This document shows positions 3,393 to 19,107 of a DNA stretch of 20,715 bases, piece by piece. Below the pieces are notes generated by a model. That model saw only the letters and a program-made list of their open reading frames with translations, did not search any database and was not told where the DNA came from. The stretch lies in IMG/VR virus record IMGVR_UViG_3300001812_000008, positions 1-20,715 of that record, one strand, 5' to 3'. The stretch's first letter is position 1; every line of letters begins with the position of its first letter. Both the position numbers and the translations under genes were made by a program. This DNA comes from a virus.

Positions 3393-4822
3393 TAACTACC
3401 ACCACCGCCCTGGCCCTCACCGCCCTGCTGCTGCTCAAGATTAGGGCGGAAGATAAGCGGTGCTTCAGCGTTCGCCTCGGCGGTTATCCGGATCAGCTCC
3501 TCTTTCAGTGTATCAGCCTCATACTGGAACAGCCGCTTGAGCGCCGTCTCCCGGCTGATAAGACCGCTCTGCACTAGGATACTGTGGATTTCCGCTTGTT
3601 CTTTATCGTCTCCAGGCAAACCATCCTGCCAGGCAATATCGATTGATTCAAACTTAACCGCCCCGCGCATTCCTTGGGCTGCTTCCAACTCTGCGGCTAA
3701 TTTCAAGACTTTCTTCAGCGCAGGGTCAAAGCGCATTCGTAACCTGTTCACTTTAGCAAGCGGCGCAAGCATTAATCGTCTTAATGCTGTGCCACTTTCA
3801 GCCATACCAGACTTGAGCTGTCCGAATGCGGCCGCTGAGGTTTCGCTTAACACATATAGCTGCTCCATCAGCAAGTCAATCTGTTTGAATGCTGCCTCCA
3901 GCTGCCCGTCCCAAGTAAAATAGCCGGGCGGGGTTTCACCCTGCCCCACGGGGAAATATTTACCGCCACCCCTGAATAACCACTCGCCGGTTTTTGAGTC
4001 TTGGACCAGTGCCGCATCCGGCCCATACATATTCGGATCGGCGTGTTTGTCCAGTATCCGGCTGATCTGCGCTACCCGAATTTCAAGTTCCTGGATGAGG
4101 CTATCTAAGTCAATGTAGTCGTCCTTTCCCATTATCCTATCGCTGGTGAGAACGTTATTGACCGGAACAATAAGAAATTCATCAACGCCGGTACTGATTT
4201 CCGTCTGTTCTTTTACCGCATCGATTTTACCGTCTTTCAGGTACTGCGTCGTTGTCGTGATTTTTCCTTTTTCATGCAGTTCGGTCTTCAGATACTGCCG
4301 CTTATGGCGCCGTCCGAACATGCCCATCTCTTCGACTTCGTACACATACGCAAGCACTTGCGCCAATGTTTCGCGGATGTTGTCGGCCGCAACAACTAAA
4401 TACCAAATGCCCGGTTGCTGTGTTTCGATAATCGCCCTCTGGTCAAAGCGTATCTTAAACAGCCCTGTGCCGTAGCGCGAAACGTCCAAGGCAACTTCGT
4501 AAGCTGTATTATGCAGCTGATTGTCCTGGGTGAGGCGTTCCAGAGTCGTTTGCTCAGGACTGTTTTTGTTGCCTGCTGTTATCCGCGGCGGCTCACCCAA
4601 GAGCAGGTCCGCGAAGAGTGTCGATAGCCGCTTATGCCAGTTTAAGATTATCTCCAGCGTGGCCTGCTGGTCGTCCCGCAGAAGTTTAACCCACTGCGCG
4701 AACACCTGCTCATGCTTGCCCTCAAAAAGAAGGCGGTTCTGGTTATACCTGGATAGTCTTTCTGCCTCATCGGGCGGCGGCCAGGTATTGCCTGCTTTTA
4801 AAAAATCAAGTGATGTCAGCAA
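3392..4822 (-). CDS. Phage portal protein (SPP1 gp6-like)
   Basis: A 476-residue protein forming the ring at the DNA-entry vertex, through which terminase pumps DNA and to which the tail attaches. Seen: an N-terminal RYNQNRLLFEGKHEQVF stretch typical of SPP1 gp6-like portals, a WHKRLSTLFADLLLGEPP segment, a central region with NNVLTSDRIMGKDDYIDLDSLI, and the clip and stem region around TSAAAFGQLKSGMAESGTALR. The tail is Gln/Gly-rich and ends in GGGGS. The length is usual. The apparent start is TTG at 4822 behind a weak GGGCGG site; an ATG four bases upstream is out of frame. The Gly-rich tail codons also supply the ribosome site of the next gene. It lies between large terminase and minor head protein, the standard packaging order. 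Confidence 0.93.
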   Translation of the reverse strand: MLTSLDFLKAGNTWPPPDEAERLSRYNQNRLLFEGKHEQVFAQWVKLLRDDQQATLEIILNWHKRLSTLFADLLLGEPPRITAGNKNSPEQTTLERLTQDNQLHNTAYEVALDVSRYGTGLFKIRFDQRAIIETQQPGIWYLVVAADNIRETLAQVLAYVYEVEEMGMFGRRHKRQYLKTELHEKGKITTTTQYLKDGKIDAVKEQTEISTGVDEFLIVPVNNVLTSDRIMGKDDYIDLDSLIQELEIRVAQISRILDKHADPNMYGPDAALVQDSKTGEWLFRGGGKYFPVGQGETPPGYFTWDGQLEAAFKQIDLLMEQLYVLSETSAAAFGQLKSGMAESGTALRRLMLAPLAKVNRLRMRFDPALKKVLKLAAELEAAQGMRGAVKFESIDIAWQDGLPGDDKEQAEIHSILVQSGLISRETALKRLFQYEADTLKEELIRITAEANAEAPLIFRPNLEQQQGGEGQGGGGS

Positions 4823-4838
4823 TCATAACACCGCCCTT

Positions 4839-6095
4839 TCACCAGCCACTTGGTTTTTCTACCGGGCTTCTCTTGATGTTTATCATGTCGTCTTCCAGCC
4901 CATAGCGAACACTATCGATGCTGTGATTATCCTTATCAGGAAACTGGCTTTTTACGATTCCGCCATAACCAGTTTCCAGTGAATAGTTTATGAACTCCCT
5001 TGCCGCAAGTGGACACCGTTCCGGGTCAATTATGATCGCCTCCAGGTCTTGCAAAAATTTGATACCAAATTCTAAGCTGCCCGGACCTTTCTTTGCCCCC
5101 TTGATTTTCATGCCATAGCTTCTCAGTTCCGCTATGCTTTTTGGCTCCGCGCTGTCCGCAATAGTCCATACGTCATTGTATCTTTGGGTTTTTTCCCAAA
5201 GCTGCCGATTAAATAGATTGAGGCCGTGGGTCTCAGCAAACAGATATAACCGCCGGCGCATCCGGTCATAATACATCCGCTCAAAGACCAACGGATCTAC
5301 TGCATAACCAAAATCTAAGCCCTGGCGAATGTGGTCAAAGACAGTTATTTCCTCATCAGCAATTTTCCGTAGCTCCACGTTGGTGAATACTTCGAGACCA
5401 GTTCCGACTTCCTCCCCCAGGTATTCATGACGATACGCTGCTTCATTGACTCTTTTCAAATGTTCGGCATCAGCCAAGAACCGCTCGCCTAACCATTCCG
5501 GCGGTACGTCCAGATATGTTGAGTGATGAACTCTCCGGCCAGTCTTCGGCTCCTTCGCCCCTTGATTCACCCAGCTGCGTCCTGACCTTGGCGGGTTGTA
5601 GCTATAAAAAGAAATCCGCTTTTTATTCTCTCCCCGAAAAAGGGACTGGAGAATGTTGCGGATTTCATCTGCGCCAGTAAACTGGTCAAGCTCTTCAAAC
5701 CAAGCATACTTGATATAACCGCGCCCCAGATTAAAAGACCTTGTTTTTTTAGGATTATCCGCCGCCTTAAACACGATCTTCTGAGCGGTGGGACAGTAGA
5801 TGATTTGCATCGGGCTGACCTGGAATTTAAACAGGTGTGCTATTCCCATCTTGCTTGCTGTCCACTCGAACTGACCAAAAACAGTGTCACGCAATTCATT
5901 CTGATATCGCCGGAATATCACAGCGTTTGCTTCTATGTCCTTTATCATCCCCAGCAATATTTGTACGCTAACAAAGGTTGATTTCGTCGACCCGCGACCG
6001 CCTTTTAGCCATACCTCATCAAAAATATCTTGCTTAAGCTCGCCGTGTAGCTTATAAAAGCTGGGGGCAATAAGTGAGGTCAACTTGACGTTCAT
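4839..6095 (-). CDS. Terminase large subunit (ATPase and nuclease)
   Basis: A 418-residue packaging motor that cuts concatemeric DNA and drives it into the head. The ATPase half shows Walker A GGRGSTKS (32-39) and a Walker B region YAWFEELDQF (130-139) with E134/E135. SFYSYNPP (162-169) matches the coupling motif region. The nuclease half has the RNase H-fold acidic residues D261 (GLDFGYAVDP), D314 (ADSAEPKS) and D394 (DNHSIDSVRYG). The motifs fit the PBSX/SPP1-like Terminase_3 group, and the length is normal. It starts at ATG 2 bp after the small-subunit stop, with GGAGAAGG upstream. No frameshift is seen and all expected catalytic residues are present. Confidence 0.96.
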   Translation of the reverse strand: MNVKLTSLIAPSFYKLHGELKQDIFDEVWLKGGRGSTKSTFVSVQILLGMIKDIEANAVIFRRYQNELRDTVFGQFEWTASKMGIAHLFKFQVSPMQIIYCPTAQKIVFKAADNPKKTRSFNLGRGYIKYAWFEELDQFTGADEIRNILQSLFRGENKKRISFYSYNPPRSGRSWVNQGAKEPKTGRRVHHSTYLDVPPEWLGERFLADAEHLKRVNEAAYRHEYLGEEVGTGLEVFTNVELRKIADEEITVFDHIRQGLDFGYAVDPLVFERMYYDRMRRRLYLFAETHGLNLFNRQLWEKTQRYNDVWTIADSAEPKSIAELRSYGMKIKGAKKGPGSLEFGIKFLQDLEAIIIDPERCPLAAREFINYSLETGYGGIVKSQFPDKDNHSIDSVRYGLEDDMINIKRSPVEKPSGW

Positions 6096-6097
6096 AG

Positions 6098-6619
6098 CTA
6101 CTGACCTTCTCCGTTTTCCTCCCCACCAATGTCATCCACTATCTTCACCGACACTTCTCCCGATAGCCTCAGACTATCGCTAAATAGTCCAATATGTTTA
6201 CCGATGAGCTCAAGAGCTTTAATCTTGTCGTAAGTCTTTATCTCACGTTCAACGATGTTTCCCGCTTCGGTGGGGATAGTTTTAACCTTAATGCTGGCAA
6301 TGGCGGCTGTGTCATCCCTATTGGCGTCACAACGAACGGCGGCCTCGTCCATATTGATTACGTCAGTAGCGTTTAAAAATGCTACTTTTGCCAACTCATT
6401 GAGGACACGGTCCTGAGTGATGCCAGTGCGGCGCGATCTGGCTGCCAAGGCTTTCTCGATAGCTTCTTTTACCCTACTTTTCCCTATTAGCCCCGGGCCG
6501 ATTTTATCAGCATTTTTTATACTATATTCTGCACGGATAGCAGCTTGTGTAGCATTTAGATCAATTAAATACTCTTCGACAAATCTTTGCTGCCTTTTTG
6601 TCAGTGCCACCGTTCTCAC
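6098..6619 (-). CDS. Terminase small subunit
   Basis: A 173-residue DNA-recognition subunit of the packaging enzyme. The N-terminus KRQQRFVEEYLIDLNATQAAIRAEYS is split across the helix-turn-helix typical of the Terminase_2 family. It is followed by IGKSRVKEAIEKALAARSRRTGITQDRVLNELAKVAF, the family's central helical segment. The C-terminus is acidic (GGEENGEGQ) and probably contacts the large subunit. The start is GTG at 6619 with GGAG seven bases upstream. It is the first gene of the late operon and lies just left of a leftward terminator and a possible late promoter. Confidence 0.93.
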   Translation of the reverse strand: MRTVALTKRQQRFVEEYLIDLNATQAAIRAEYSIKNADKIGPGLIGKSRVKEAIEKALAARSRRTGITQDRVLNELAKVAFLNATDVINMDEAAVRCDANRDDTAAIASIKVKTIPTEAGNIVEREIKTYDKIKALELIGKHIGLFSDSLRLSGEVSVKIVDDIGGEENGEGQ

Positions 6620-9676: not shown

Positions 9677-9921
9677 CGCCGCGCATCTCCAATCCAGCCT
9701 TCGTAAACAAAGCCGTCGCAATCTTCACATAGATCGCGGTTCTCATTCATAAACATCCAACACACTTCACAAAAGTACAGGGTATATATGCCCCCGTCCC
9801 CTGCGCAGATTTCAGCGTGGACTTCGCTTCCCGCCGGGATTTTCTCACAGCAACCGAAGCAGCGGTGGTCTTTGCGGGTCTTGACTATCTTCTCGCGGAT
9901 TAAAACGGGAATAATCTTCAT
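9673..9921 (-). CDS. Small Cys-rich protein, probable zinc finger
   Basis: An 82-residue protein, not assigned to a family. Eight cysteines lie in pairs: C21/C24/C25, C39, C51/C54 and C65/C68, with CFGCCEKI and FCEVCW reminiscent of treble-clef or zinc-ribbon folds. It begins with an ATGA overlap with the stop of the SbcC-like gene, so it belongs to the recombination operon. It might mediate protein or nucleic-acid contacts. Confidence 0.75.
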   Translation of the reverse strand: MKIIPVLIREKIVKTRKDHRCFGCCEKIPAGSEVHAEICAGDGGIYTLYFCEVCWMFMNENRDLCEDCDGFVYEGWIGDARR

Positions 9922-12068
9922 GATATCACCTCCACCTTGCTGCCTTCCGCAGTCTTCCGCACAACGATCTGCTGCGGGAAGAACTCCTTCAACTCGTCAA
10001 TATGTGTCACCACTATCACGAGTGAGAAGTCTTCTGCGATGATATTGATCGCCTCGGTAAAGGCGGTACGGCCCGCTGCGTCTAAGCAACTTGCGCCTTC
10101 GTCAATCACCAGAACCTCAATCTTCGCCCCGGCCCGCTTGGCCAGAAACTTGCTGATCGCCAGCCGGATGCCTAGATTAACCTCAAACCGCTCCGCTCCG
10201 CTCCAGCCCTCGTATGGACGTTCCCCCAGCTCGTCTGAAACAACAATGTCCAGGGTCTCGCTGATGTTTCCGGTGGTCTTAGCTTCCTTCTGCGTCTCAA
10301 AGCGGATCTCCATCCTCCCGCCGGTTAAGCGGGATAGCAGGTCATTGGCCAATATCTCCACTTCCGGCAGGGCATTCTCGATAATCAGGGCCGGAATCCC
10401 CGCTCTGCCGAAGGCCTTCGTAAGCTGGGCGTACCAGTGTTCTTCCTGAGCAAAAACCTTGAGTTCGTTTTCCAATACAACTTTCTGCCCAGCCTTGGCG
10501 TCCAGGTCTTTAAGGCGGGAGCTTACGGTCCCCAGCTTGATGCCGGTATCCTGATCCAGTTCTTGGACTTCTTTCAGCTGCCTGCGGGCGCCGAAAAAGA
10601 TGGATTCGGTTTTACGGAGCTCCGCTGCAACTTTCTCTATGTCAGCCAGGCCGATGTTTATAGAAACAAGCTCTGCCCGCAATTCTTTTTGGCGCTCCTG
10701 CAACTCGTCCGCCTGCTGCTCGATGCCGGCCATATTCTCTTCAGCCTGATTCAACTCTGGCAGAACTGCAGTCCATTTCTCCAGCGCCGATACTCGCTCA
10801 CGCAACCGGCGGTGCTCAGCTTCATCGTATTTAACAGCGTCACGAGCAGTACAAGCCTTTTGCCAAGCGGACACGTGCGGATTTTTCTGCTCCCGTAACT
10901 CTTTTAGCCGGGAATCAAGGACTGGAATTTCGGCTGCGGCCTCTCTTGCGGATTTGAGCAGCTGACAAATTTCTTTTTCATTCCCGGAACAGGGAACTTT
11001 TTCAAGTAGCTCCGCTTGCCGTCGCTTCGATTCCAGGCTGCTTTTAATGCTGCAGATTTCACTTTCTTGTTCACGATCGAATTTGGCCACCTGCCGCTCT
11101 AGCGTTTCGCAGTCACGCGACAATTGCCGTTCCCTGGTGGCCTTATCATCGCACGCTGCGATTTGTTTTTTGTCTTGCTCCAACTCTTTGGCTTTTGTCC
11201 TGATTTCGTCTCCGCGGTCGATGATTTTTTGCAGCCGCTCCCGTTTTTGTTCTAAGCCAGAAAGCCGGCTATCATTGGAAGCAAGCTCGCTATTAATTTT
11301 AGTCTGACGACCGCGTAAATCTTCGCTGCGGGCAGCTTTGACACGTAAATCAGAGACAATCTTTTCCTGATTTTCCAGGTCAATTTCCAGCTGATTAATA
11401 CTCTCCCGCGACGCCTTTTGTTCGCCTTCCAAGCGCTGCTCCTGCTGCTTTAGTTCCCCGTAACGCGACAAATCGGCATCAATGTTATCTATGGCCGCTC
11501 TCTTGATTGCAGCTTGATCCCGGTATCCCCGGGCCTTGGCCTTCGCCGTCTCTTGTAGCTGGTCGTAGATGTCCAGCCCCAGGATCTGACCGAATATCTC
11601 CATCCGCTTGCCCGGTGTAGCCTTGGTCAGCCGGTCAGCCTCGTCCTGGAGTATGACGCAGGAACTGACGAAGGTTTCGTAATCCATCCGGAGTAAGTCG
11701 CGGATTTTGTCCTGCGTCTCTTTCATGGTGGCGCCTGACAATGAGATCCACCCAGAACAGCCCTGTTTGGCCAGCTCCAGGGTGCTCTTGCCCTTACCCC
11801 TGTTCGAGCGGGTCCGGATAACCCGGTAGACCTCGTCTGCCAGGGCGAACTGCAGCTCGCCTATTGCTTGCTCTTGGCCTTGGCGGATATAGCGATCGAT
11901 ATCCTTATAGCGGCCTTCGCCGTACAAAGAGAACGTGATTCCATCCACAAGGGACGACTTGCCGCTGCCATTGTGTCCTAACAGGGCCACCAATCTCAAA
12001 CCCTGAAAATCAATCTCCGTATTACCGTAAGACAAAAAATTGTTTAAGTTAAGCTTGGTTGGTTGCAT
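9918..12068 (-). CDS. sbcC: SbcC/Rad50-like SMC-type ATPase
   Basis: A 716-residue ATPase that partners the nuclease gene next to it to process DNA ends. Walker A GHNGSGKS is at 31-38. The Q-loop region VILQDEADR has Q141, with TPGKRMEIFGQILGLD following as in Rad50. Two long coiled coils (about 165-355 and 375-520) flank a hook. The signature region WSGAERFEVNLGIRLA lies near 620-635, Walker B VLVIDEGASCLD near 652-663 with D656/E657, and a switch His in VVTHIDEL. The hook is C360-x7-C368 instead of the usual CxxC. It is shorter than cellular SbcC (about 1000 residues), as is common in phages. Its ribosome site GGAGGTGA lies in the end of the SbcD-like gene. Confidence 0.92.
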   Translation of the reverse strand: MQPTKLNLNNFLSYGNTEIDFQGLRLVALLGHNGSGKSSLVDGITFSLYGEGRYKDIDRYIRQGQEQAIGELQFALADEVYRVIRTRSNRGKGKSTLELAKQGCSGWISLSGATMKETQDKIRDLLRMDYETFVSSCVILQDEADRLTKATPGKRMEIFGQILGLDIYDQLQETAKAKARGYRDQAAIKRAAIDNIDADLSRYGELKQQEQRLEGEQKASRESINQLEIDLENQEKIVSDLRVKAARSEDLRGRQTKINSELASNDSRLSGLEQKRERLQKIIDRGDEIRTKAKELEQDKKQIAACDDKATRERQLSRDCETLERQVAKFDREQESEICSIKSSLESKRRQAELLEKVPCSGNEKEICQLLKSAREAAAEIPVLDSRLKELREQKNPHVSAWQKACTARDAVKYDEAEHRRLRERVSALEKWTAVLPELNQAEENMAGIEQQADELQERQKELRAELVSINIGLADIEKVAAELRKTESIFFGARRQLKEVQELDQDTGIKLGTVSSRLKDLDAKAGQKVVLENELKVFAQEEHWYAQLTKAFGRAGIPALIIENALPEVEILANDLLSRLTGGRMEIRFETQKEAKTTGNISETLDIVVSDELGERPYEGWSGAERFEVNLGIRLAISKFLAKRAGAKIEVLVIDEGASCLDAAGRTAFTEAINIIAEDFSLVIVVTHIDELKEFFPQQIVVRKTAEGSKVEVIS

Positions 12069-12069
12069 A

Positions 12070-13323
12070 TCACAAGCTCACCTCCCCGGTAAGTATCTCC
12101 GCCCGCTTCACGAGCTCAGCCTGCTCCTCCTCGGGCACCTGGTTGACCTGGCACCATAAGCTCAGGGCATCCACCGGTCGGAGCTCCGACGTGGCTTCAG
12201 CAGCCCGCTGGGTGCGGTTGGAACGCCGGATTTTTGCCTCAATCCCCTGGACATAGAAAGCGCCTAGTTGGTAGAGCTCCCGCATGACCTGCGCCTGGCT
12301 TATTTGCCTGGCACCGGCCTCGGTCACCTCGTAGCGGACCCGGACAATGGCATCTGCTCCCGGGGAACGCACCATGTCTTCTCCGTTAGTTGTCAGAGAA
12401 TAGCTAACGTCCCTTAATACCTCAACCGCTCCGTCAGGGTCGTTATCACGCCAAGGCAAATCCAGCGTCCAGTACTTCCGTGATGGTGTTTCAATAAATC
12501 TGTTGCTAATGTTGTCATAGGGCAGATCGGGTTCTATTTCGTGTATCCAAAATCCAGGAGTGATTTGCTCCTCGTTGAAGCTCAGCCGTTCGGGAGAACC
12601 GCAGTAGAACGTCGGCACGGTCAGCCCCTGCACCTGCTGCGCTTTGTGAATATGCCCCAGGCATACCAGGTCGAACCCAGCTCCTTCGATAGCCGCCTTA
12701 GTCAGGACCGGCTCGTGTTGCATCAGCAGGTCCTCGAAGCCCTTATCAGCGCCAGCGCAGGTAATATGCGAAAGCAGAATCTTCGGATGATACTCGCATT
12801 GTGCGGCCAGCCCAAGAGTTAACTCGGTTACCCGGTCGGTTATCAGCTGATGTAGCTCGTGCGCGGGGATCTTGGAGTATTCTTCCCGAGAAGCGATTGT
12901 AGAACGGTTGATCCCGGGAAGGCAAACAACCGAAATGATCAGTCCATCCCAGTAAACCTCCTTAATCCCTGGGGACGTAAAGATATGGACCTCTAAGATG
13001 CGCATCTCCTTGATCAACTCATAAGCAGCGATAGCATCATGGCTAGGTGTGCCGCTGATGACCACTACAGGAACCCCGGCCTCGGAGAAACGGCGCAGCC
13101 ACCTGACAGCCGCGGCGATCTCCACCGATGCCCGGTCCAGAAAGACACGGGCATCTTTGAATAGATCCCCGGCTACCAGAACCAGATCGCAGTTCTCTTC
13201 GATGATCCGGTCGGCCATGAAATCAGCGACACGGCAGATATCATCAAACCGGGAAGAAGGGGATGGGCCGGCGTAGCCCATCCCAAAGTGGAGATCAGCG
13301 CAATGCGCAATTTTAATCGTCAT
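12070..13323 (-). CDS. sbcD: SbcD/Mre11-like metallophosphoesterase nuclease
   Basis: A 417-residue nuclease subunit of an SbcCD-type complex. Phosphoesterase motifs in order: D10 and H12 (HCADLHFG), GDLF with D53, SGTPSHD (90-96) where most Mre11 proteins have GNHD, a SHITCAG His near 200, and CLGHIHKA near 230. The first metal ligands are therefore present, with a variant third motif that I have also seen in other phage-type members. The C-terminal third is a capping and partner-binding region. The start at 13323 is preferred because it makes an ATGA overlap with the upstream stop, has AGGTGG seven bases before it, and directly precedes the conserved TIKIAHCAD; a longer reading from 13395 would add 24 unlikely residues. 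Confidence 0.92.
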   Translation of the reverse strand: MTIKIAHCADLHFGMGYAGPSPSSRFDDICRVADFMADRIIEENCDLVLVAGDLFKDARVFLDRASVEIAAAVRWLRRFSEAGVPVVVISGTPSHDAIAAYELIKEMRILEVHIFTSPGIKEVYWDGLIISVVCLPGINRSTIASREEYSKIPAHELHQLITDRVTELTLGLAAQCEYHPKILLSHITCAGADKGFEDLLMQHEPVLTKAAIEGAGFDLVCLGHIHKAQQVQGLTVPTFYCGSPERLSFNEEQITPGFWIHEIEPDLPYDNISNRFIETPSRKYWTLDLPWRDNDPDGAVEVLRDVSYSLTTNGEDMVRSPGADAIVRVRYEVTEAGARQISQAQVMRELYQLGAFYVQGIEAKIRRSNRTQRAAEATSELRPVDALSLWCQVNQVPEEEQAELVKRAEILTGEVSL

Positions 13324-14453
13324 CTTCCGCCACCTGCCTTCTGGCCGGCCGTTTTCTTCTCCTGCAAACCGGCTTCCTTTTGGCAAGACACGCAAAGCTT
13401 TTTACCGTACCGTTTTTGGCTGTAGTCGGCTATTTGCTGCGGGGTCCAGTCCTTTTCGATCGCAATAATCTGGTCGCAGCCTTGGCAGACAATAGCGTTT
13501 TTGAACATATCATGCTGCCCAGGGTCATCTGTTACGGCTTGCCCTTCCCAGGGAGGACCGACATCGTTCCCTCCGTCACCTTCGCCGGTCCAGGGCAGGT
13601 TATCAACAACATCAGCCGTAACATCCGCATCTATAACGGCGCCGCTCGCGTTGAACCGCTCCTCACGCTGGTCAACATCGATCGGCTGCCCAAGGAGCTG
13701 CTGCGGAGCCTGGAGTTGGTGGACGGCGGATTGACCGAACAGGTCGGACGTGGCCCGGATGCCTGCCTCGGCCATAGCTTTGCGAACCTCAGGATCGCTG
13801 TAGTCAGGCGCAAAGTCTACGGTCGGCACCGCGAAGGGCTTCTTCAGCTCTGCTGCCGAATACTGATGCTTGACTGACAGCAGCGCCCGCACCACCCGCA
13901 GCATGGCCCCGGTCTCGGCCCGCATCAGCTTGTTCTTTTTCCACTGGATCATGTTTTTGCGGGTTTTGGCCTCCGCCCACTCCTCGGGAGCAAGGCCATC
14001 CCGCTGTTCAGGTTTCAATTTTTTGGCTGTTTCCAGGTTAGTATCGTAAGTCTCAGCCTCCACCACTTCCAGATCGATCTCTTTGGTGGCCTTAAGCGGG
14101 ATCCACTCACCCGAGGGCTTGCGCATGGCCCCCACAGCCTGGTATAGGACATAATCTTTGCCGGCCGACAAAACTCTGGTTTCTGCCCAGTTCCAGACGA
14201 TACCGGCAGCGGTCGACAGACGCAAAACAGCCGTTTTGGAAAGGGACAATACATCCTCAAAATTATTGCCTACCTTTTTGCTGCCCACCTTAAAAACATC
14301 CCCTGCCTCGGGATCCGGGTTAATCTTTACCTCCTCCACCCGGATTCGGTGGAAGGGCGATATCTGCTGCATTGTGACAGTTGGGAAAAGGACGTTGCAG
14401 CGTCCTTCATAATCTTTAAGTTGAATAAGGGAAGTGCTTTTTTCTTGTATCAT
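13320..14453 (-). CDS. Candidate single-strand annealing / recombination protein with C-terminal zinc finger
   Basis: A 377-residue protein not firmly recognised. The N-terminal two thirds include KVGSKKVGNNFEDVLSLSK, KLMRAETGAMLRVVRALL and SAAELKKPFAVP. Their order (substrate-like beta region, then a helical TGAMLRVVRALL followed by SAAEL and an Asp-rich stretch) recalls RecT-type annealing proteins, which have KTVIRxLxK...PxSxEL in the same place. The last 60 residues hold C323-x2-C326 and C354-x2-C357, a zinc ribbon. It overlaps the SbcD-like gene as ATGA and starts at ATG 14453 behind GGAGG. In phages, annealing proteins are often paired with SbcCD-like or exonuclease genes. The role is inferred from weak similarity plus context. 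Confidence 0.65.
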   Translation of the reverse strand: MIQEKSTSLIQLKDYEGRCNVLFPTVTMQQISPFHRIRVEEVKINPDPEAGDVFKVGSKKVGNNFEDVLSLSKTAVLRLSTAAGIVWNWAETRVLSAGKDYVLYQAVGAMRKPSGEWIPLKATKEIDLEVVEAETYDTNLETAKKLKPEQRDGLAPEEWAEAKTRKNMIQWKKNKLMRAETGAMLRVVRALLSVKHQYSAAELKKPFAVPTVDFAPDYSDPEVRKAMAEAGIRATSDLFGQSAVHQLQAPQQLLGQPIDVDQREERFNASGAVIDADVTADVVDNLPWTGEGDGGNDVGPPWEGQAVTDDPGQHDMFKNAIVCQGCDQIIAIEKDWTPQQIADYSQKRYGKKLCVSCQKEAGLQEKKTAGQKAGGGR

Positions 14454-14649
14454 TTGACTTGTAATCCTCCTTCATAGCTTTGTAACACTGCTCGCTCTCC
14501 ATCCACTGCCCCGCCGCCATAAGGACGCACCCGGCCAAAACTACCGCCCCTGCGATCAGATACCCATCGCCGGGGGAATCCGCCCCCGTCGCACCGAGCA
14601 GCATAACCAAGAAGCCGGTGAGCATGATTTTATCAGCAAGTTTTCTCAT
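14416..14649 (-). CDS. Small membrane protein with two predicted helices
   Basis: A 77-residue protein, function unknown. Two hydrophobic segments, about residues 8-22 (IMLTGFLVMLLGA) and 30-48 (YLIAGAVVLAGCVLMAAG), are joined by a short Asp/Gly loop. A basic, hydrophilic tail follows. The start ATG at 14649 follows GAGGAG. It overlaps the next gene by 38 bp. A small early membrane protein could be an exclusion factor or an anchor; nothing in the sequence decides this. Confidence 0.65.
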   Translation of the reverse strand: MRKLADKIMLTGFLVMLLGATGADSPGDGYLIAGAVVLAGCVLMAAGQWMESEQCYKAMKEDYKSNDTRKKHFPYST

Positions 14650-14667
14650 AACTGTTCTCCTCGTTTT

Positions 14668-14766
14668 TTATCTTTGCCGCCCCGCCGCCTGCAGCCGGTA
14701 AGCCTGACCACACGACCGGCATATTTTCGTATGGTCTGTTTCTCTGGTCGCGCACGGGGCAGCAGT
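14668..14766 (-). pseudogene. Possible remnant of a zinc-ribbon ORF
   Basis: A 33-codon open stretch without a start codon encodes HTKICRSCGQAYRLQAAG, a plausible zinc-knuckle fragment. In another leftward frame just upstream there is a NCCPVRDQ stretch. Joining the two by one frameshift would give a C-C...C-x2-C protein. This may be a decayed gene between the 78-residue Cys protein and the membrane protein, or chance. Confidence 0.2.
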
Positions 14767-14794
14767 TTACATCTGTCCGCGATTATGCTATAGT
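14766..14794 (+). promoter_or_regulatory. Strong rightward sigma-A promoter inside the early operon
   Basis: TTTACA at 14766-14771, 17 bp spacer, TATAGT at 14789-14794 preceded by TGC (extended -10). It points against the surrounding genes. The predicted start is near 14801, and a terminator begins nine bases later. Confidence 0.6.
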
Positions 14795-15019
14795 AGGAGT
14801 GTGATGTTCACCGCTTCGGCGGTTTTCTTTTTTTAGCTCCGCCCGGATCTTCTTTGTCCACCCCAGATACATCGGCTCGCACCGCCGGCAGATCGCGCCT
14901 GCCGCCATCCGCCCGCACATCTCGCAGCGCTGCAGGTAGACCACATTCGGCGTCTGCAGGCGCCGCAGCCAGGCTTGGAATTCGCGGTTCTTGCCGATGT
15001 AACTCGTTAAGATTTTCAT
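14783..15019 (-). CDS. Small zinc-ribbon protein (78 residues)
   Basis: Unassigned. Two CxxC pairs (C32/C35 and C44/C47 in CEMCGRM and CRRCEPM) form a probable zinc ribbon. They follow a basic N-terminus starting MKILTSYIGKNREFQAWLRR and precede a Lys/Arg-rich helix. The final 18 codons are overlaid by the opposite-strand promoter and terminator, so the tail KKENRRSGEHH may be dictated by those signals. The start ATG at 15019 follows AAAGGAGG. Neighbours on both sides are further small early genes. Confidence 0.7.
   Translation of the reverse strand: MKILTSYIGKNREFQAWLRRLQTPNVVYLQRCEMCGRMAAGAICRRCEPMYLGWTKKIRAELKKENRRSGEHHTPTIA
14801..14834 (+). ncRNA. Predicted ~34-nt antisense transcript ending in a terminator
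   Basis: Transcript predicted between a strong rightward promoter and an intrinsic terminator: ACCGC-TTCG-GCGGT (14810-14823) followed by TTT-C-TTTTTTT to 14834. The tetraloop is the very stable UUCG type. The RNA would be almost only a terminator hairpin with a leader of about nine bases, and it is antisense to the last codons of the 78-residue Cys protein. A ten-codon ORF from the ATG at 14804 exists, but its ribosome site (AGGAG at 14795) lies upstream of the predicted RNA start. No expression data; both signals are read from sequence. Confidence 0.45.
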
Positions 15020-15022
15020 CCC

Positions 15023-15226
15023 TTAACCCTCCTTTCTGAGCGTAAAATATTGCCTTATGACATCGCCTTGAAACTGTGCGAAACTTTTGTAATCCTGAAT
15101 CGCCTGCCGATAATACGGATTATTAAATGTTCCGTCACAGTGTATACACACCACGAACTCATCTTCCCGCTTGTCGTAAGAGGAATACATGCTCTCGTGA
15201 CAATAAGGGCAATCCCAGCGGTTCAT
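15023..15226 (-). CDS. Small zinc-ribbon protein (67 residues)
   Basis: Unassigned protein with C6/C9 (CPYCHE) and C27/C30 (CIHCDG), a clear zinc-ribbon arrangement, then an aromatic, Gln-rich helical tail. It lies 3 bp upstream of the next leftward gene. Start ATG at 15226 after GGAGG. Tiny zinc ribbons like this are common in early phage operons, where roles in DNA or host protein binding are suspected but rarely known. Confidence 0.75.
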   Translation of the reverse strand: MNRWDCPYCHESMYSSYDKREDEFVVCIHCDGTFNNPYYRQAIQDYKSFAQFQGDVIRQYFTLRKEG

Positions 15227-15268
15227 GCTTTTCCCTCCTCTCCGGATAACCCATCTTCAGTCTCCTTT

Positions 15269-15727
15269 CTACCCCGCCAAGGGCATAATTTCTTTGATGC
15301 TGATACCCTGCCGCAAGGCGAAGAACTTTAACTCGCCGATCCGCTTCTCCAGCTCCACCGCTTCTTTCAGGATACCTTCAAACTCGTCTACTTCGTTCCG
15401 CTTAAGCTCCCCATCCGCGGCAATCCTGATCAGTTTGTCCCGCAGCCGCTCCACATCCGCAAATTCCTTCAGCACTCTTAGCACCGTCACCGCGAAGGCC
15501 GGTCTGTCCAGCGAATGTGCAAGCACCTGCCCGATTGGGCACACTTTCGCGCAGTAATCCGCAGGCAGCGCAGGCTCACGGTACACCTCCGCCATGCGCA
15601 TCACCACGTCCGGCGGCGCGATGGTCTTGTGACACTCATAGTCAGCAAGCGTCCTGGTGCCGATATAAAGCCGGTGGGCGGCTTCCTCTCTGCTTAGGCC
15701 GACTACGTTTCGTGCTTCTTTCAGCAT
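15269..15727 (-). CDS. Helix-turn-helix phage early regulator (XRE-type)
   Basis: A 152-residue protein. The N-terminal XRE-type helix-turn-helix spans about residues 1-50: ARNVVGLSREEAAHRLYIGTR followed by LADYECHK. Around residues 58-66 is YCAKVCPIGQ, a conserved Cys-containing segment seen in related Firmicute prophage proteins. The rest is a Leu/Glu-rich helix that probably dimerises. It is placed downstream of the left switch in the early operon, so it may be a secondary regulator of early or late genes. Start ATG at 15727 with AAAGGAG upstream. Confidence 0.8.
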   Translation of the reverse strand: MLKEARNVVGLSREEAAHRLYIGTRTLADYECHKTIAPPDVVMRMAEVYREPALPADYCAKVCPIGQVLAHSLDRPAFAVTVLRVLKEFADVERLRDKLIRIAADGELKRNEVDEFEGILKEAVELEKRIGELKFFALRQGISIKEIMPLAG

Positions 15728-15759
15728 TGTTTAAATCTCCTTTCCGGTTCAGAATTAGG

Positions 15760-15942
15760 CTATAAGTATCTGCGCTTACCGCTGTCGTAGACATACTGAC
15801 GGCCCCGGTTATCGACATGCACCTGGCACGTATTAGCCAGGTAGATACGTTCAACTCTGTCTTCGCACTCTGGACAGTATCCGCCGCCGCTGTCAGCGTT
15901 ATCGCAACCCGGAGAGATGCACTTATAAGCGCTCTTTGACAA
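15760..15942 (-). CDS. Small Cys-rich protein behind the left Cro-like gene
   Basis: A 60-residue protein with C8, C13, C23, C26 and C39, a probable zinc site (GYCPECEDR). TTG start at 15942, one base beyond the upstream stop. Its ribosome site and first five codons are a near copy of those of the gene at 16948-17190. It shares the leftward transcript of the left switch. Confidence 0.7.
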   Translation of the reverse strand: MSKSAYKCISPGCDNADSGGGYCPECEDRVERIYLANTCQVHVDNRGRQYVYDSGKRRYL

Positions 15943-15960
15943 TCTAACTTACCTCCTTTT
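15928..15960. repeat. Duplicated RBS/start module, copy A
   Basis: Matches 17176-17207 over 32 bases with one single-base indel: AGCGCTCTTTGACAAT and TAACTTACCTCCTTTT are identical in both. On the minus strand it contains AAAAGGAGGTAAGTTA, the TTG start and the first codons of a small Cys-rich gene. In this copy it also encodes the last residues (KKEVS) of the Cro-like protein. Confidence 0.75.
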
Positions 15961-16159
15961 TCGGTTTATCGAGCAGCTCAAATATTGATACGCCTAAGGC
16001 TACAGCGAGCTTTTCGACTGTGCGAACGGTAGGGCTTTTTTTGCCTGCTTCAATGGCTCCTATGAATGGCTGAGAAAGGCCAGCCTTTTCAGCCAGTTCC
16101 GCCTGGCTCAATCCCTGGGTGGCCCGAATTTCTTTAAGTCTTTGCGGTAATGTTTTCAT
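15944..16159 (-). CDS. XRE-family DNA-binding protein, left switch (Cro-like)
   Basis: A 71-residue single-domain helix-turn-helix protein: LPQRLKEIRATQGLSQAELA, AGLSQPFIGAIEAGKKSP, VEKLAVALGVSIFELL. No C-terminal domain, hence Cro-like in size. It is first in the leftward early operon and is transcribed from a TTGACA-16-TATAAT promoter whose -10 overlaps the best operator of the left switch. Divergent to the repressor at 16282. Inferred role: binds the ATAACT-type operators to shut off the opposite repressor and adjust early transcription. Start ATG at 16159 after AAGGGGGG. Confidence 0.85.
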   Translation of the reverse strand: MKTLPQRLKEIRATQGLSQAELAEKAGLSQPFIGAIEAGKKSPTVRTVEKLAVALGVSIFELLDKPKKEVS

Positions 16160-16179
16160 TTAGACACCCCCCTTCTTTA

Positions 16180-16207
16180 ATTATAACTATGGTTATATGT
16201 TTGTCAA
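16180..16207 (-). promoter_or_regulatory. Leftward early promoter (left switch)
   Basis: Leftward TTGACA (16207-16202), 16 bp, TATAAT (16185-16180). Both hexamers are consensus. The operator at 16183-16196 overlaps the -10 and spacer, so bound repressor would block RNA polymerase. It drives the Cro-like gene and, downstream, the replication operon. Confidence 0.8.
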
Positions 16208-16262
16208 TACTATAATTATAATTTTATCAGGCAAGCGAATGCTTTATAATAACTTTAGTTAT
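16182..16262. promoter_or_regulatory. Operator region of the left switch (three sites)
   Basis: Sites: ATAACTATGGTTAT (16183-16196), ATAACTTTAGTTAT (16249-16262) and a degenerate ATAATTATAATTTT (16212-16225, 11 of 14 matches to the consensus). The first covers the leftward -10; the last covers the candidate rightward -10 (TATAAT, 16245-16250), whose -35 is weak. Dyad symmetry and placement match a lambda-like OR region. Binding by either XRE protein is inferred. Confidence 0.65.
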
Positions 16263-16281
16263 GACACTTAAGGAGCGCTCC

Positions 16282-16581
16282 ATGAACGTTAGCCACCGTA
16301 TAACCGAATTAAGAGAAACTGTTGGCTGGAGCAAGAATCGGCTGGCTAAAGAATCCGGCCTTTCTCAGGCTTATATCAGCCAACTGGAAGCCGGCCAAAA
16401 GGAACCGACAACTTCAACACTGTTTAAACTTTGTTCCGCACTTAATATCTCTTTGGTGGATTTCTTTACGGTCAACGGTTCGACTATGCCTCCCGACCTG
16501 CGCCGACTGCTCCACCAGGCCGAATCCCTTACCCCTCCCCAGCGTGAAAAGCTTGCCGAGTTTATTAAGAGCCTAAAATAA
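16282..16581 (+). CDS. XRE-family repressor, left switch (CI-like)
   Basis: A 99-residue protein with an N-terminal helix-turn-helix (SHRITELRETVGWSKNRLA, SGLSQAYISQLEAGQKEP, LFKLCSALNISLVDFF) and a short helical C-terminus (LRRLLHQAESLTPPQREKLAEF) that probably dimerises. There is no LexA-type S24 peptidase domain. Start ATG at 16282 is chosen because AAGGAG lies six to seven bases before it; the upstream in-frame ATG at 16261 sits inside an operator and has no ribosome site. Rightward, opposite to the lytic operon, so it is the likely lysogenic repressor of the replication genes. Followed by a small zinc-ribbon gene. Confidence 0.83.
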   Translation: MNVSHRITELRETVGWSKNRLAKESGLSQAYISQLEAGQKEPTTSTLFKLCSALNISLVDFFTVNGSTMPPDLRRLLHQAESLTPPQREKLAEFIKSLK

Positions 16582-16605
16582 CCCCTCGAAGGAGGAGACC
16601 TCGCA

Positions 16606-16809
16606 ATGTTCGATAAGAGCGTAAAGCTGGATATACCCTGCCCTGAATGCAACCACACTGTTAAACTTTCGATCAGAGAGATTGAGCGAAACCCCTCTTA
16701 TGCTTGCCCTAGATGCCAAAATACCATCAACCTGGATGCACGCAAGTTTACCAAAGAATTAGGAAAAGCCGAAAAGCAATTAAAAGACATGTTCAAAAAA
16801 TTCAAGTAG
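16606..16809 (+). CDS. Small zinc-ribbon protein next to the left repressor
   Basis: A 67-residue protein with C12/C15 (CPECNH) and C34/C37 (CPRCQN), a zinc ribbon, then a Lys-rich helix (KFTKELGKAEKQLKDMFKKF). Start ATG at 16606 after GGAGGAG. It lies 24 bp after the left repressor and is probably cotranscribed with it, so it would be expressed in the lysogen. It may modify repressor action or be a passenger. Its last 8 bp overlap a convergent gene. Confidence 0.75.
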   Translation: MFDKSVKLDIPCPECNHTVKLSIREIERNPSYACPRCQNTINLDARKFTKELGKAEKQLKDMFKKFK

Positions 16810-16963
16810 CCATCTTCTCCGTTCCGATTTCCAACTTAAAATTGTTTATGTCTTCAATTTTTAAAGCCAGGGCAATAGCAAGATCTTCTACTTCTTTTAG
16901 CAGCTGAAAAAAATCTGTTAGGTTGCTGGTGACTTTAGACTTGATCTCTAGCTTGGGATACAT
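16802..16963 (-). CDS. Small helical protein (53 residues)
   Basis: Not recognised. ATG start at 16963 with GGAGGGAG nine bases upstream. The product is helical with a heptad-like pattern (LTDFFQLLKEVEDLAIALAL, about residues 15-34). It overlaps the end of the upstream Cys-rich gene and, convergently, the end of the zinc-ribbon gene at 16606-16809. It is the last gene of the leftward arm of the right switch. The ribosome site and gene-to-gene overlap support it as real. Confidence 0.55.
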   Translation of the reverse strand: MYPKLEIKSKVTSNLTDFFQLLKEVEDLAIALALKIEDINNFKLEIGTEKMAT

Positions 16964-17190
16964 AGCTCTCCCTCCTCGTCAGTGATTGAGGTGATGGTCT
17001 CGCACTGGGCGGCAAACCACTCCGCTGCGCAGTCGTCGCCGCAGAAGATGGCCTTTGTTGGCGGGAAGACCGTGGCCGGCGCGTTAATTACGGTCTCGCA
17101 CATTCTGCAAATGTTTGGATAATGCATGCCCTGGTATACGATAACTTCTACGGTTTCATATTCCTGGTTGTATAAAGCGCTCTTTGACAA
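16948..17190 (-). CDS. Small Cys-rich protein behind the excisionase-like gene
   Basis: An 80-residue protein with C28/C31, C50/C54, C63 and C77. The CRMCETVI ... FCGDDCAAEWF pattern resembles treble-clef zinc fingers. TTG start at 17190, inside the end of the excisionase-like gene. Its ribosome site and first codons are a duplicate of those of the gene at 15760-15942. Function unknown. Confidence 0.7.
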   Translation of the reverse strand: MSKSALYNQEYETVEVIVYQGMHYPNICRMCETVINAPATVFPPTKAIFCGDDCAAEWFAAQCETITSITDEEGELCIPS

Positions 17191-17440
17191 TTAACTTACC
17201 TCCTTTTCTCCTGATTTGAGCATCAACCCACTTCTCAAGGGCCTGCCGCGGGATGCGGACATACCGGCCAAACCTTATGGTCGGAATCTCCCCCCTCTTG
17301 GCCATGTCGTATACTTTAGACTTTTTTAGCCCCAAGTGCCTGGCCGCTTCGGGGACGGTAAAGAGATAGGGCTGATCTTGCATAAATGGCTTCACCTCCG
17401 GTAGCGGAGCTGTCATGTAGCGTCCAGGGTCCTCAGTCAT
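17156..17440 (-). CDS. xis: Excisionase-like DNA-binding protein (HTH_17 family)
   Basis: A 94-residue protein with a MerR-like winged helix-turn-helix: YLFTVPEAARHLGLKKSKVYD, RGEIPTIRFGRYVRIPRQALEKWV. This is the domain of phage excisionases and related architectural proteins. Start ATG at 17440 is preferred (AAGGAGG eight bases upstream, ATGA overlap with the upstream stop). The C-terminal residues KGGKLIVKERFIQPGI are read through a duplicated ribosome-site module, suggesting that the end of the gene was rebuilt by recombination. Part of the leftward arm of the right switch. Inferred role: bends DNA at att sites to direct the integrase toward excision. Confidence 0.75.
   Translation of the reverse strand: MTEDPGRYMTAPLPEVKPFMQDQPYLFTVPEAARHLGLKKSKVYDMAKRGEIPTIRFGRYVRIPRQALEKWVDAQIRRKGGKLIVKERFIQPGI
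17176..17207. repeat. Duplicated RBS/start module, copy B
   Basis: Second copy of the module at 15928-15960 (one single-base indel). Here it provides the ribosome site and start of the 80-residue Cys-rich gene and simultaneously codes for part of the excisionase-like C-terminus in another frame. Confidence 0.75.
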
Positions 17441-17619
17441 CGGGAAGCCTCCTTCAGGGTTACGTACTTGCCTTTCTTCTCTGCCGTCTGCGGTCGTTTG
17501 CCGAAACGGTAGGGGTAAAGCGAGCAATCTTTGATGAGACAAAGCTCAACCTCAAGACTGCTGTTGCCGCTACAATCCAAACACTTCTTCCTGATCGCCT
17601 TCATCGGGGTAGGAGTCAT
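17437..17619 (-). CDS. Small conserved prophage zinc-binding protein
   Basis: A 60-residue protein of a type common in Firmicute prophages: MTPTPMKAIRKKCLDCSG opening, C13/C16 and C27/C32, then DCSLYPYRFGKRP. The cysteines probably bind zinc. Start ATG at 17619 with GGAGGG eight bases upstream; a longer reading from 17766 would add a hydrophobic stretch not seen in such proteins. It overlaps the excisionase-like gene by ATGA. Function unknown. Confidence 0.75.
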   Translation of the reverse strand: MTPTPMKAIRKKCLDCSGNSSLEVELCLIKDCSLYPYRFGKRPQTAEKKGKYVTLKEASR

Positions 17620-17681
17620 GCCAGAATCCCTCCGTTGCGTTTTTAAGGGTAGTACGCTAGCTGTTTTAGCCCCGAACACCC

Positions 17682-17740
17682 CCGGCAGGTATAAAACCAT
17701 TAACGGGGACAAGACCATCACAAAATGGCCTCCCTGCCGG
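17682..17740. repeat. Inverted repeat between the right Cro-like gene and the next gene
   Basis: CCGGCAGG at 17682-17689 and CCTGCCGG at 17733-17740, perfect 8 bp arms, 43-base loop. It fills the 121 bp space between two leftward genes and ends exactly at the stop of the Cro-like gene. It could fold in the mRNA or bind a protein; no terminator T-tract follows. Confidence 0.4.
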
Positions 17741-17974
17741 CTACATGGCTTCCTCAGGTAACTCATATTTGGTTGCGACTCTCTGAATTTCGGGACACAG
17801 TAAAGTTTCTATCGAAAGGCCAAACTCCTGGTGGGCCTTCAAGGCAACCCTTTTAGATATCCCGTGTTGCCCATGAATAATCATTGAATAGTTACTTTTA
17901 GTAATACCAAGCCTGCGGGCCATTTCAGTTTTGTTAATTTTTAGGTGCTGCCTCAACTGCTCAAGTTTGTGCAT
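17741..17974 (-). CDS. XRE-family DNA-binding protein, right switch (Cro-like)
   Basis: A 77-residue helix-turn-helix protein: LEQLRQHLKINKTEMARRLG, TKSNYSMIIHGQHGISKRVA, LKAHQEFGLSIETLL. Single domain. It is first in the leftward arm that continues to the zinc protein, excisionase-like and small Cys-rich genes. The promoter is TTGACA-18-TATAAT with one operator between the hexamers and another covering the ribosome site region. Divergent to the repressor at 18105. Start ATG at 17974 with AGGGG nine bases upstream. Confidence 0.83.
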   Translation of the reverse strand: MHKLEQLRQHLKINKTEMARRLGITKSNYSMIIHGQHGISKRVALKAHQEFGLSIETLLCPEIQRVATKYELPEEAM

Positions 17975-17979
17975 CCAAG

Positions 17980-18078
17980 TTCACCCCTTCTGAACTCATT
18001 ATAATTCAGCAACTCTGAACTTGTCAAGAGGGAATTTCATAGTTTCTGAACCTGTCTTGCAAATTCATATAACCTGAA
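17980..18078. promoter_or_regulatory. Four-operator array of the right switch
   Basis: Four sites TTCA-N6-CTGAAC begin at 17980, 18005, 18036 and 18064, all in the same orientation, centre spacing 25, 31 and 28 bp. The first lies in the leader of the leftward gene, the second between the leftward -35 and -10, the third between the two promoters, the fourth exactly in the spacer of the rightward promoter. This arrangement would let one repressor act on both promoters. The bound protein is inferred. Confidence 0.8.
17998..18027 (-). promoter_or_regulatory. Leftward promoter of the right switch
   Basis: TTGACA (18027-18022), 18 bp, TATAAT (18003-17998), both consensus. Operator 2 fills the spacer. 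It drives the Cro-like and excision genes. Confidence 0.78.
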
Positions 18079-18085
18079 CTATACT
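18057..18085 (+). promoter_or_regulatory. Rightward promoter of the right switch
   Basis: TTGCAA at 18057-18062, 17 bp, TATACT at 18080-18085. Operator 4 (18064-18078) lies in the spacer, so the repressor probably limits its own synthesis. It drives the XRE gene at 18105. Confidence 0.7.
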
Positions 18086-18104
18086 TACCGAAAGGGGGAT
18101 GTTA

Positions 18105-18539
18105 ATGAGTTTTGGAGAACGCTTGAAAAAAATTAGGACGGAGCGAGGGCTTCGCCAAGAAGATATTGGGAAGATAGTCCATGTGGGAAAATCAACTGTT
18201 TCTCAATGGGAGAATAATATCCACACACCCGATTTGGAAACCGTCGCTAAAATTGCTCGTGCTCTTAATGTTTCTGTGGAACAGTTTATTGACGATGCCC
18301 CCCCACAACTCCTTGGCCGCACCGACTATCGCACCACCTCCACCCCCGTTGCCCACAAAATTATTACTCCCCCGCATATTGACGATGAACTCTGGACGGA
18401 GGAGGAGTTAATGGAAATTGAGAGATTTAAGAATTTTATCCTGTCAAAACGAAAAGAAAGTGTTCATCCAATTCACCACATGGCATTTACAACACAGAAA
18501 ACCCCACCCGCCACAAGGCCAACAAAAAAACCCCGGTAG
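18105..18539 (+). CDS. XRE-family repressor, right switch (CI-like)
   Basis: A 144-residue protein. Residues 1-65 form the helix-turn-helix: GERLKKIRTERGLRQEDIGK, HVGKSTVSQWENNIHTPD, LETVAKIARALNVSVEQF. Residues 66-144 are Pro/Thr-rich with a central acidic helix (WTEEELMEIERFKNFILS) and a basic tail. No S24 peptidase or other enzyme domain is visible, so RecA-stimulated self-cleavage is unlikely. Start ATG at 18105 fits the AAAGGGGG site (six bases); the ATG two codons earlier is too close. Rightward, opposite to the lytic genes. Inferred role: lysogenic repressor of the excision arm. Confidence 0.83.
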   Translation: MSFGERLKKIRTERGLRQEDIGKIVHVGKSTVSQWENNIHTPDLETVAKIARALNVSVEQFIDDAPPQLLGRTDYRTTSTPVAHKIITPPHIDDELWTEEELMEIERFKNFILSKRKESVHPIHHMAFTTQKTPPATRPTKKPR

Positions 18540-18702
18540 GGGACGGGCTTTGAAGGGTTTGTCGAAATGATTAATAATACGTGACAGGATGGATGTCGTA
18601 GATTTAACCCGTGGCAGAGTGGGCGCATGAGTTTTATATGCGGATCGAGATCCCTTAATGAAAAAGATATGATTAAAGATCCGGTAAGAGGAGGATAACA
18701 AA
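18540..18702. other. 163-bp intergenic region before the DUF6941-like gene
   Basis: No gene seen. Contains GGATC-GA-GATCC (palindrome) and CGCAT/ATGCG inverted arms, plus AGAGGAGG as the ribosome site of the next gene. No convincing promoter could be picked out. Confidence 0.4.
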
Positions 18703-19107
18703 ATGCAAGTTAGAGCCTTTTTCCCTTGTGAACAAATTGTTAACAGGATGGACGGGTCTGTTGATATCATGAGGTTTGGCCCTAAACAGATTATATTTAG
18801 TGCAAAAAACAGGGATCAACCTGTCCAGACATTCATGAGTATTGTATGCGTGCTTTCTTTTACTGCCCCCGAAAGAGGCGACAAGCATTTGGTGATTTCT
18901 TTACAACCGCCCGATAGTGCCGCCATAGAATTGATAACTATTAACTTTAAAATTGAAGGGAAGGGCGGACAAGAAGAGTTTGACATGTATAGCCAAGCAG
19001 CCTTAACAATAAGAAAGCCAGGTAAACATTTCTTATCCGCAACGCTCGGTGGACAAGAAATCGCCAGCTGGCCAATTGAAGTAATTATTAATTATATTGA
19101 GGGTTAA
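18703..19107 (+). CDS. DUF6941-like beta-sandwich protein (accessory)
   Basis: A 134-residue protein without signal peptide or membrane segment. The sequence is strand-rich: VDIMRFGPKQIIF, FMSIVCVLSFTAPERGDKHLVI with a GxHxxxxxLxxPxxA-like centre, and an ending in GGQEIASWPIEVIINY. This resembles small DUF6941-type proteins whose role is unknown. Start ATG at 18703 with AGAGGAGG. It is the first of three accessory genes between the control region and the integrase and converges with the next one (20 bp overlap). AT-richer than the phage core. Could be a lysogeny-expressed cargo gene. Confidence 0.7.
   Translation: MQVRAFFPCEQIVNRMDGSVDIMRFGPKQIIFSAKNRDQPVQTFMSIVCVLSFTAPERGDKHLVISLQPPDSAAIELITINFKIEGKGGQEEFDMYSQAALTIRKPGKHFLSATLGGQEIASWPIEVIINYIEG

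Follow-up and report, generated by a model that had tools for sequence, protein, structure and literature searches.

Can a temperate phage carry two complete lysogeny switches, and what would the second one do? The textbook phage decision is a single bistable switch. The stretch analysed here, called the window, is a complete IMG/VR virus record (IMGVR_UViG_3300001812_000008; 20,715 bp), and a sequence-only reading had placed two complete repressor switches in series at 15944-18539, one over excision and one over replication. We confirmed two intact divergent pairs of XRE-type regulators, each with its own promoters and palindromic operators. We give about an even chance to the reading that this region is a two-stage lysogeny lock, in which an exchangeable inner switch sits within the lytic arm of an outer switch of the ordinary kind.

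Two intact switches with distinct operators

The inner pair consists of the Cro-like XRE1 and the repressor XRE2, and the outer pair of the Cro-like XRE3 and the repressor XRE4 (Table 1). Open reading frames (ORFs) were called mechanically; all four are intact, with HTH_3 or HTH_19 matches well above the curated cut-offs. Each pair has the hallmarks of a CI/Cro-type switch: its two helix-turn-helix (HTH) genes diverge from a common operator region between them, and the operators lie over both promoters and show conservation across relatives. For XRE2, only the -10 of the promoter is good (TATAAT at 16245-16250). XRE2 most likely starts at 16282 rather than at the longer 16261, with AAGGAG 6 nucleotides upstream of the 16282 ATG. 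In the majority of XRE2-type loci, an XRE1 homologue is found divergent to the repressor. The claim of two complete switches thus held, with intact ORFs, promoters and unlike operators; the spacing of 1.6 kb given with it did not, as the operator regions lie ~1.8 kb apart from centre to centre.

The operator patterns were derived from the window sites themselves, so their significance against shuffled sequence proves little alone and was set aside. Conservation in relatives provides independent support for the predicted operators. In two single-switch relatives, the kind of comparison that the sequence-only reading had proposed, the right operators occur at the same four positions; they are exact at 2/4 positions in L082 (XRE4 58% identical) and at 3/4 in L074 (53%), the others being degenerate. 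For the inner type, the intergenic regions of XRE2-type loci hold 11 palindromes of the form N4-CT-WW-AG-N4, in 9/23 loci, against 1.6 in shuffles (500 shuffles, maximum 6), and the outer letters of the palindrome differ from locus to locus. An inner-type site at 18069-18082 was not conserved in the single-switch relatives and is, at most, a possible cross-talk site between the switches. XRE3 is 65-66% identical to its L082 and L074 counterparts (nonsynonymous divergence, dN, 0.23-0.27; synonymous divergence, dS, saturated) and the HTH part of XRE4 66-73% identical (dN/dS about 0.1-0.15), values that indicate purifying selection on both.

The serial layout recurs in other phages

To place the window, 399 genomes of the host's phylum were searched with XRE2 and with XRE4, the loci were extended, and named phages were added. 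Of the 29 loci that have an XRE2-type repressor together with one or more divergent pairs, 16 carried at least two, compared with 1/14 XRE4-type loci (Fisher p=0.003), so the layout is far from unique to the window; it is also seen in unrelated phages, cultured ones among them. The outer pair of L071 was identified by hand and the count corrected accordingly; a third automatic pair in L066 was discarded as an artefact, a neighbouring XRE5 gene having been counted. The order in the double-switch cases checked was replication genes, inner cro, inner repressor, outer cro, outer repressor and integrase, and wherever two switches could be told clearly apart, the window included, the extra one lay beyond the inner repressor, towards the integrase. 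Named phages with the serial layout are Brevibacillus phages Jimmer2, Osiris and Davies, Lacticaseibacillus phage R24.2, Lactobacillus phage JNU_P10 and Marinitoga camini virus 1 (MCV1). A scan of viral contigs using XRE2 as a single protein returned no relatives.

Other stacked arrangements were seen in passing. Four loci (L056, L062, L069 and L070) carry 3-4 divergent XRE pairs serially within 4-6 kb; not all are clearly phages, L056 having a serine recombinase and L070 being unclear. In Fusobacterium phage phiPaco (L111), a non-XRE divergent regulator pair lies at 4686-5536, just inside an S24-type CI/Cro switch, and is possibly another kind of inner module.

The outer arm is not closed by a detectable terminator

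The window virus comes from a Peptococcaceae host. Its positions 14000-17362 match contig JAGXSS010000028.1, from a Peptococcaceae metagenome-assembled genome (MAG), with 100% identity, and a second contig of that MAG, L072, also carries a serial double switch. From ~18 kb to its left end the window is read leftward throughout, through early and recombination genes and then terminase and structural genes, with the sole exception of a single short rightward island formed by XRE2 and the zinc-ribbon gene ZnR. Right of 18.1 kb lie XRE4, a DUF6941 gene and a tyrosine integrase truncated at the contig end.

The sequence-only reading had ended the right switch's leftward arm at a convergent junction near 16802. 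ZnR and a 53-aa ORF do converge there, overlapping at 16802-16809, but no intrinsic terminator was detected at this junction, so the convergence stood and the ending gained no support. An initial terminator finder detected 1/14 controls, too few to be of use, and was replaced by a fold-based finder detecting 19/30. With the latter, leftward terminators were found at 1/14 convergent junctions of switches and in 27/60 directional tests at control convergent pairs from the same loci (p=0.012). The window thus groups with the serial double switches in having an outer arm unclosed by an intrinsic terminator. Since no terminator separates the arms and the genes run leftward from XRE3 to the structural genes, barring the XRE2-ZnR island, a transcript from the outer switch is able to continue as far as the replication genes. 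Moreover, the outer arm consists of cro alone in 7/10 double-switch loci; short of read-through, the outer switch there would have nothing else to control.

Sensors usually lie with the outer repressor

We compared ten clear double-switch loci (the window, L059, L063, L066, L068, L071, L072, L073, L076 and L079). An induction-sensing peptidase lies within or beside the outer repressor in 7/10 and the inner repressor in 0/10 (p=0.003). An S24 domain is part of the outer repressor in four cases (L071, L072, L073 and MCV1), and an ImmA-type M78 gene lies near it in three (L066, L068 and, weakly, L059). In the window itself S24 is absent from XRE2 and XRE4, and the neighbouring genes tested include no M78 gene. 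Lack of S24 is common among Gram-positive CI proteins, and the domain is not essential to the CI/Cro family. The DUF6941 gene downstream of XRE4 may encode a repressor partner; it likewise follows the XRE4-type repressor in L082 (5979-6374), at the place where L074 (3114-3557) has an M78 gene.

On the inner side, positions 3-95 of the XRE2 family profile align to chain positions 2-99 of SinR (1b0n; E 1.8e-14), the tail part weakly. Repressor genes of this family often precede a small coiled-coil or zinc-ribbon gene, and such partners, ZnR among them, are candidates only for SinI-type antagonists.

At L063:11337-12202, two ORFs past the outer repressor each match another portion of DUF3800, as if one gene had been split or disrupted.

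The inner switch is exchanged as a cassette

Closely related phages differ at the inner switch. Between Jimmer2 and Osiris, identity is 99.6% over the segment that runs from outer switch to integrase and 88% across replication, yet their inner switches are different. L063 and L059 are 95-100% identical over the outer switch and 97% over the XRE2 tail and its partner gene, whereas identity falls to ~50% precisely within XRE1, the operators and the DNA-binding part of XRE2. Phages iLp84 and R24.2 match at 92% on the outer side and 91% on the replication side, with an inner switch in R24.2 only. The inner switch behaves as the variable switch that determines specificity.

In the window, the inner cassette is bracketed by two copies of a 34-bp direct repeat, 97% identical and the only same-strand self-repeat present. 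We rejected the idea that this repeat is a linker shared among phages; it is absent from other viral contigs and from the other fetched loci, and is therefore lineage-specific. In L002 the recombination protein is 83-86% identical to the window's, yet the switch is different and single.

The slot of L002 that matches the cassette (5426-6595) contains opposite-strand ORFs and one more XRE gene, possibly what is left of an inner cassette. At window position 17362, within the Xis-like gene beside the cassette, the MAG contig of the window phage breaks off; strain variation at this point may have interrupted the assembly.

A proposed two-stage lock and its alternatives

The order of the genes, the scarcity of terminators, the placing of sensors, the cassette boundaries and the recurrence and exchange of inner switches all come from computation on the sequences, whereas the activity of both switches and the direction and means of their coupling are inferred. 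In the proposed relay, the simplest reading, XRE4/XRE3 would be the phage's ordinary immunity switch, and XRE2/XRE1 with ZnR a second CI/Cro-type switch, carried as a cassette that separates the outer early genes from those for replication. Each repressor would hold its own promoters in the lysogen. Upon induction the outer switch would be released first, and its leftward transcript would cross the outer arm and the junction, running antisense over ZnR and XRE2. This antisense transcription would lower XRE2 synthesis, possibly with the help of an outer-arm product, and as the inner repressor fell, XRE1 and the replication arm would switch on. An antirepressor encoded in the outer arm may offer an alternative coupling route; in MCV1 the outer arm carries an AntA/KilAC antirepressor that faces the inner repressor. 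More tentatively, and on balance with somewhat greater reserve, we suggest that temperate phages of Bacillota, and at least one of Marinitoga, form a class with such a lock, where a constant outer switch would sense the signal while an exchangeable inner switch sets immunity specificity and gates replication, the two being coupled by antisense read-through or by an outer-arm antirepressor.

Several points weigh against this account. XRE4 has no recognised sensor domain, its only candidate being the DUF6941 neighbour, and the antirepressor route is seen in MCV1 only and is absent from the window. The absence of an intrinsic terminator does not exclude Rho-dependent termination, and XRE2 bound at inner operator O1 could act as a roadblock stopping the outer transcript. 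The survey is also small, some of its loci are related, and the outer pair of L071 entered it by hand.

The same exchanges could be explained if the two switches were uncoupled, the inner cassette being kept for immunity against a second phage group and as an independent lock, so that replication begins only if both repressors are lost. That the exchanged part is the inner specificity block (Jimmer2 against Osiris, L063 against L059) fits such stacked immunity, and the loci with three or four pairs are what accumulation predicts. However, an uncoupled inner lock would block the prophage's own induction, because the inner repressor has no sensor domain, and the fixed order and depleted terminators suggest coupling; we regard uncoupled switches as rather unlikely, while cross-immunity, which the sequence-only reading had raised, is compatible with the data. 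Mosaic exchange had been raised as well, and here origin and function part ways. As an origin it stands, given the 34-bp repeats around the cassette and the near-identical cultured phages in which the cassette is exchanged or missing. One switch being now a recombination passenger that regulates nothing would fit the repeats, the different single switch of L002 and the free exchange of modules, but is improbable: the four ORFs are intact, operators are conserved, XRE3 and XRE4 appear to be under purifying selection, and the layout recurs in cultured phages, of which the Jimmer-like ones form stable lysogens (PMC4909266).

Separate control of excision and replication, with either possible without the other, agrees with where the arms lead: the outer arm of the window does contain the HTH_17 excisionase-like gene, and XRE1 does lead to recombination and replication genes. 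Yet no terminator separates the arms, and in the five other double-switch phages whose Xis-like gene could be assigned to an arm (L066, L071, L072, L073 and Osiris/Davies) it belongs to the inner one. In most relatives the outer arm is cro only, and HTH_17 proteins beside cro may be regulators rather than Xis. The division of labour first proposed for this locus is accordingly not supported, and we judge fully independent control to be quite improbable.

Features of the region and its surroundings

Table 1. Coordinates of the switch components and adjoining features in the window.
Feature	Position	Strand	Evidence
Fifth XRE-type protein, first larger replication-arm gene	15269..15727	-	HTH_3 7e-5
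34-bp direct repeat, left copy (XRE1 3' end, Shine-Dalgarno and next gene start)	15927..15960	.	
XRE1, Cro-like regulator of inner pair (71 aa), opening the inner leftward (lytic) arm	15944..16159	-	HTH_3 2.4e-18
Inner leftward promoter TTGACA-16-TATAAT	16180..16207	-	12/12 consensus bases
Inner operator O1 over XRE1 promoter -10	16183..16196	.	exact ATAACTNNRGTTAT
Inner operator O2 over XRE2 promoter -10	16249..16262	.	exact ATAACTNNRGTTAT; family form N4-CT-WW-AG-N4
XRE2, inner repressor, 99 aa, SinR-like, without sensor domain	16282..16581	+	HTH_3 2.3e-16
ZnR, zinc-ribbon partner gene downstream of XRE2	16606..16809	+	two CxxC pairs; zinc-ribbon matches weak, below cut-off
53-aa ORF, last outer-arm gene, overlaps ZnR convergently	16802..16963	-	no significant family
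80-aa cysteine-rich ORF of outer arm	16948..17190	-	ORF call
HTH_17 excisionase-like gene of outer arm	17156..17440	-	PF12728 5e-15, phrog_66 6.8e-13
34-bp direct repeat, right copy (junction of Xis-like and 80-aa genes)	17175..17207	.	
109-aa ORF of outer arm, true start probably internal	17437..17766	-	no family
XRE3, outer Cro-like regulator	17741..17974	-	HTH_19 2.9e-12
Outer operators O1-O4	17980, 18005, 18036, 18064 (span 17980..18079)	.	exact TTCAN6CTGAAC
Outer leftward promoter TTGACA-18-TATAAT	17998..18027	-	12/12 consensus bases
Outer repressor (XRE4) promoter TTGCAA-17-TATACT	18057..18085	+	9/12
Inner-type operator-like site overlapping outer O4 and XRE4 -10	18069..18082	-	2 mismatches; 1.7% of shuffles reach that
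XRE4, outer CI-like repressor	18099..18539	+	HTH_3 8e-17
Leftward terminator past XRE4 stop, shielding outer switch	18528..18551	-	terminator search
DUF6941 gene downstream of XRE4, candidate outer-repressor partner	18703..19107	+	PF22091 1.3e-6
Tyrosine integrase, cut by contig end	19847..20715	+	PF14659 5e-18, PF00589 2e-9

Homologues of the fifth XRE-type protein occupy the equivalent place in L063, L074 and L091. An apparent similarity between the 53-aa ORF and a 54-aa ORF at the equivalent place in R24.2 was not significant and was dropped. Further into the leftward run, at 9918-14453, a phage-borne SbcC/SbcD-like pair adjoins a 377-aa protein without any Pfam family, which is common to L002 and L003; a search of phage records with the protein at 13320-14453 gave zero matches.

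Relation to known systems and significance

Each half of the locus is an ordinary CI/Cro-type switch. Like the modules of Gram-positive temperate phages and elements (TP901-1, phi13 and the ICEBs1 ImmR/ImmA type), each has divergent HTH genes with operators over both promoters, and as in those modules the integrase lies beyond the repressor and the lytic arm beyond cro. The difference is that here a single lytic arm carries two modules, one after the other, whose operators are unrelated and whose inner repressor lacks a sensor. Phage P22 also has two immunity regions, immC and immI, the second affecting the first (PMC8022706, PMC11016777), but its immI is an antirepressor region (mnt-arc-ant) that belongs to the late operon, while the two regions of the window are adjacent and both of CI/Cro type; no ANT/Arc family member was found among the tested window proteins. 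The cI and ImmR module of ICESt1/ICESt3 (PMC3234194, PMC6540685) likewise combines two different HTH repressors in one mobile element. There both sit on one side of a single module, whereas each window repressor stands opposite its own cro, with its own promoters and operators and with no M78 gene found that would match the ImmA-like protease of the ICE module; neither P22 nor ICESt1/ICESt3 has two such switches in series.

The TF-smORF modules of Vibrio and Aeromonas phages (PMC10432266) are similar in that they form an additional regulator locus, separate from the CI switch and able to set off lysis, but they encode an activator and a small CI-inactivating protein, an activator logic that the window does not show. 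To SinR-type repressors the XRE2 family is linked by its alignment, which includes part of the SinR tail, and by the small partner gene that is usually next to it; XRE2 differs in being phage-borne and divergent to a cro-like gene, with other operators, and no SinI relative was identified. The report on the Brevibacillus phages discusses other paralogous HTH proteins, not the serial layout (PMC4909266), and we found no description of that layout in the open-access literature searched, a scope outside which most subscription journals lie.

The Jimmer2/Osiris and R24.2/iLp84 pairs differ mainly in the inner switch near the lysogeny region, so the question is directly testable. If the two-stage lock is real, the recurrent serial layout would separate the sensing of the signal from immunity specificity, and would explain how immunity can be exchanged among phages without loss of the induction trigger. 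Lysogeny in these phages would then be a two-key decision.

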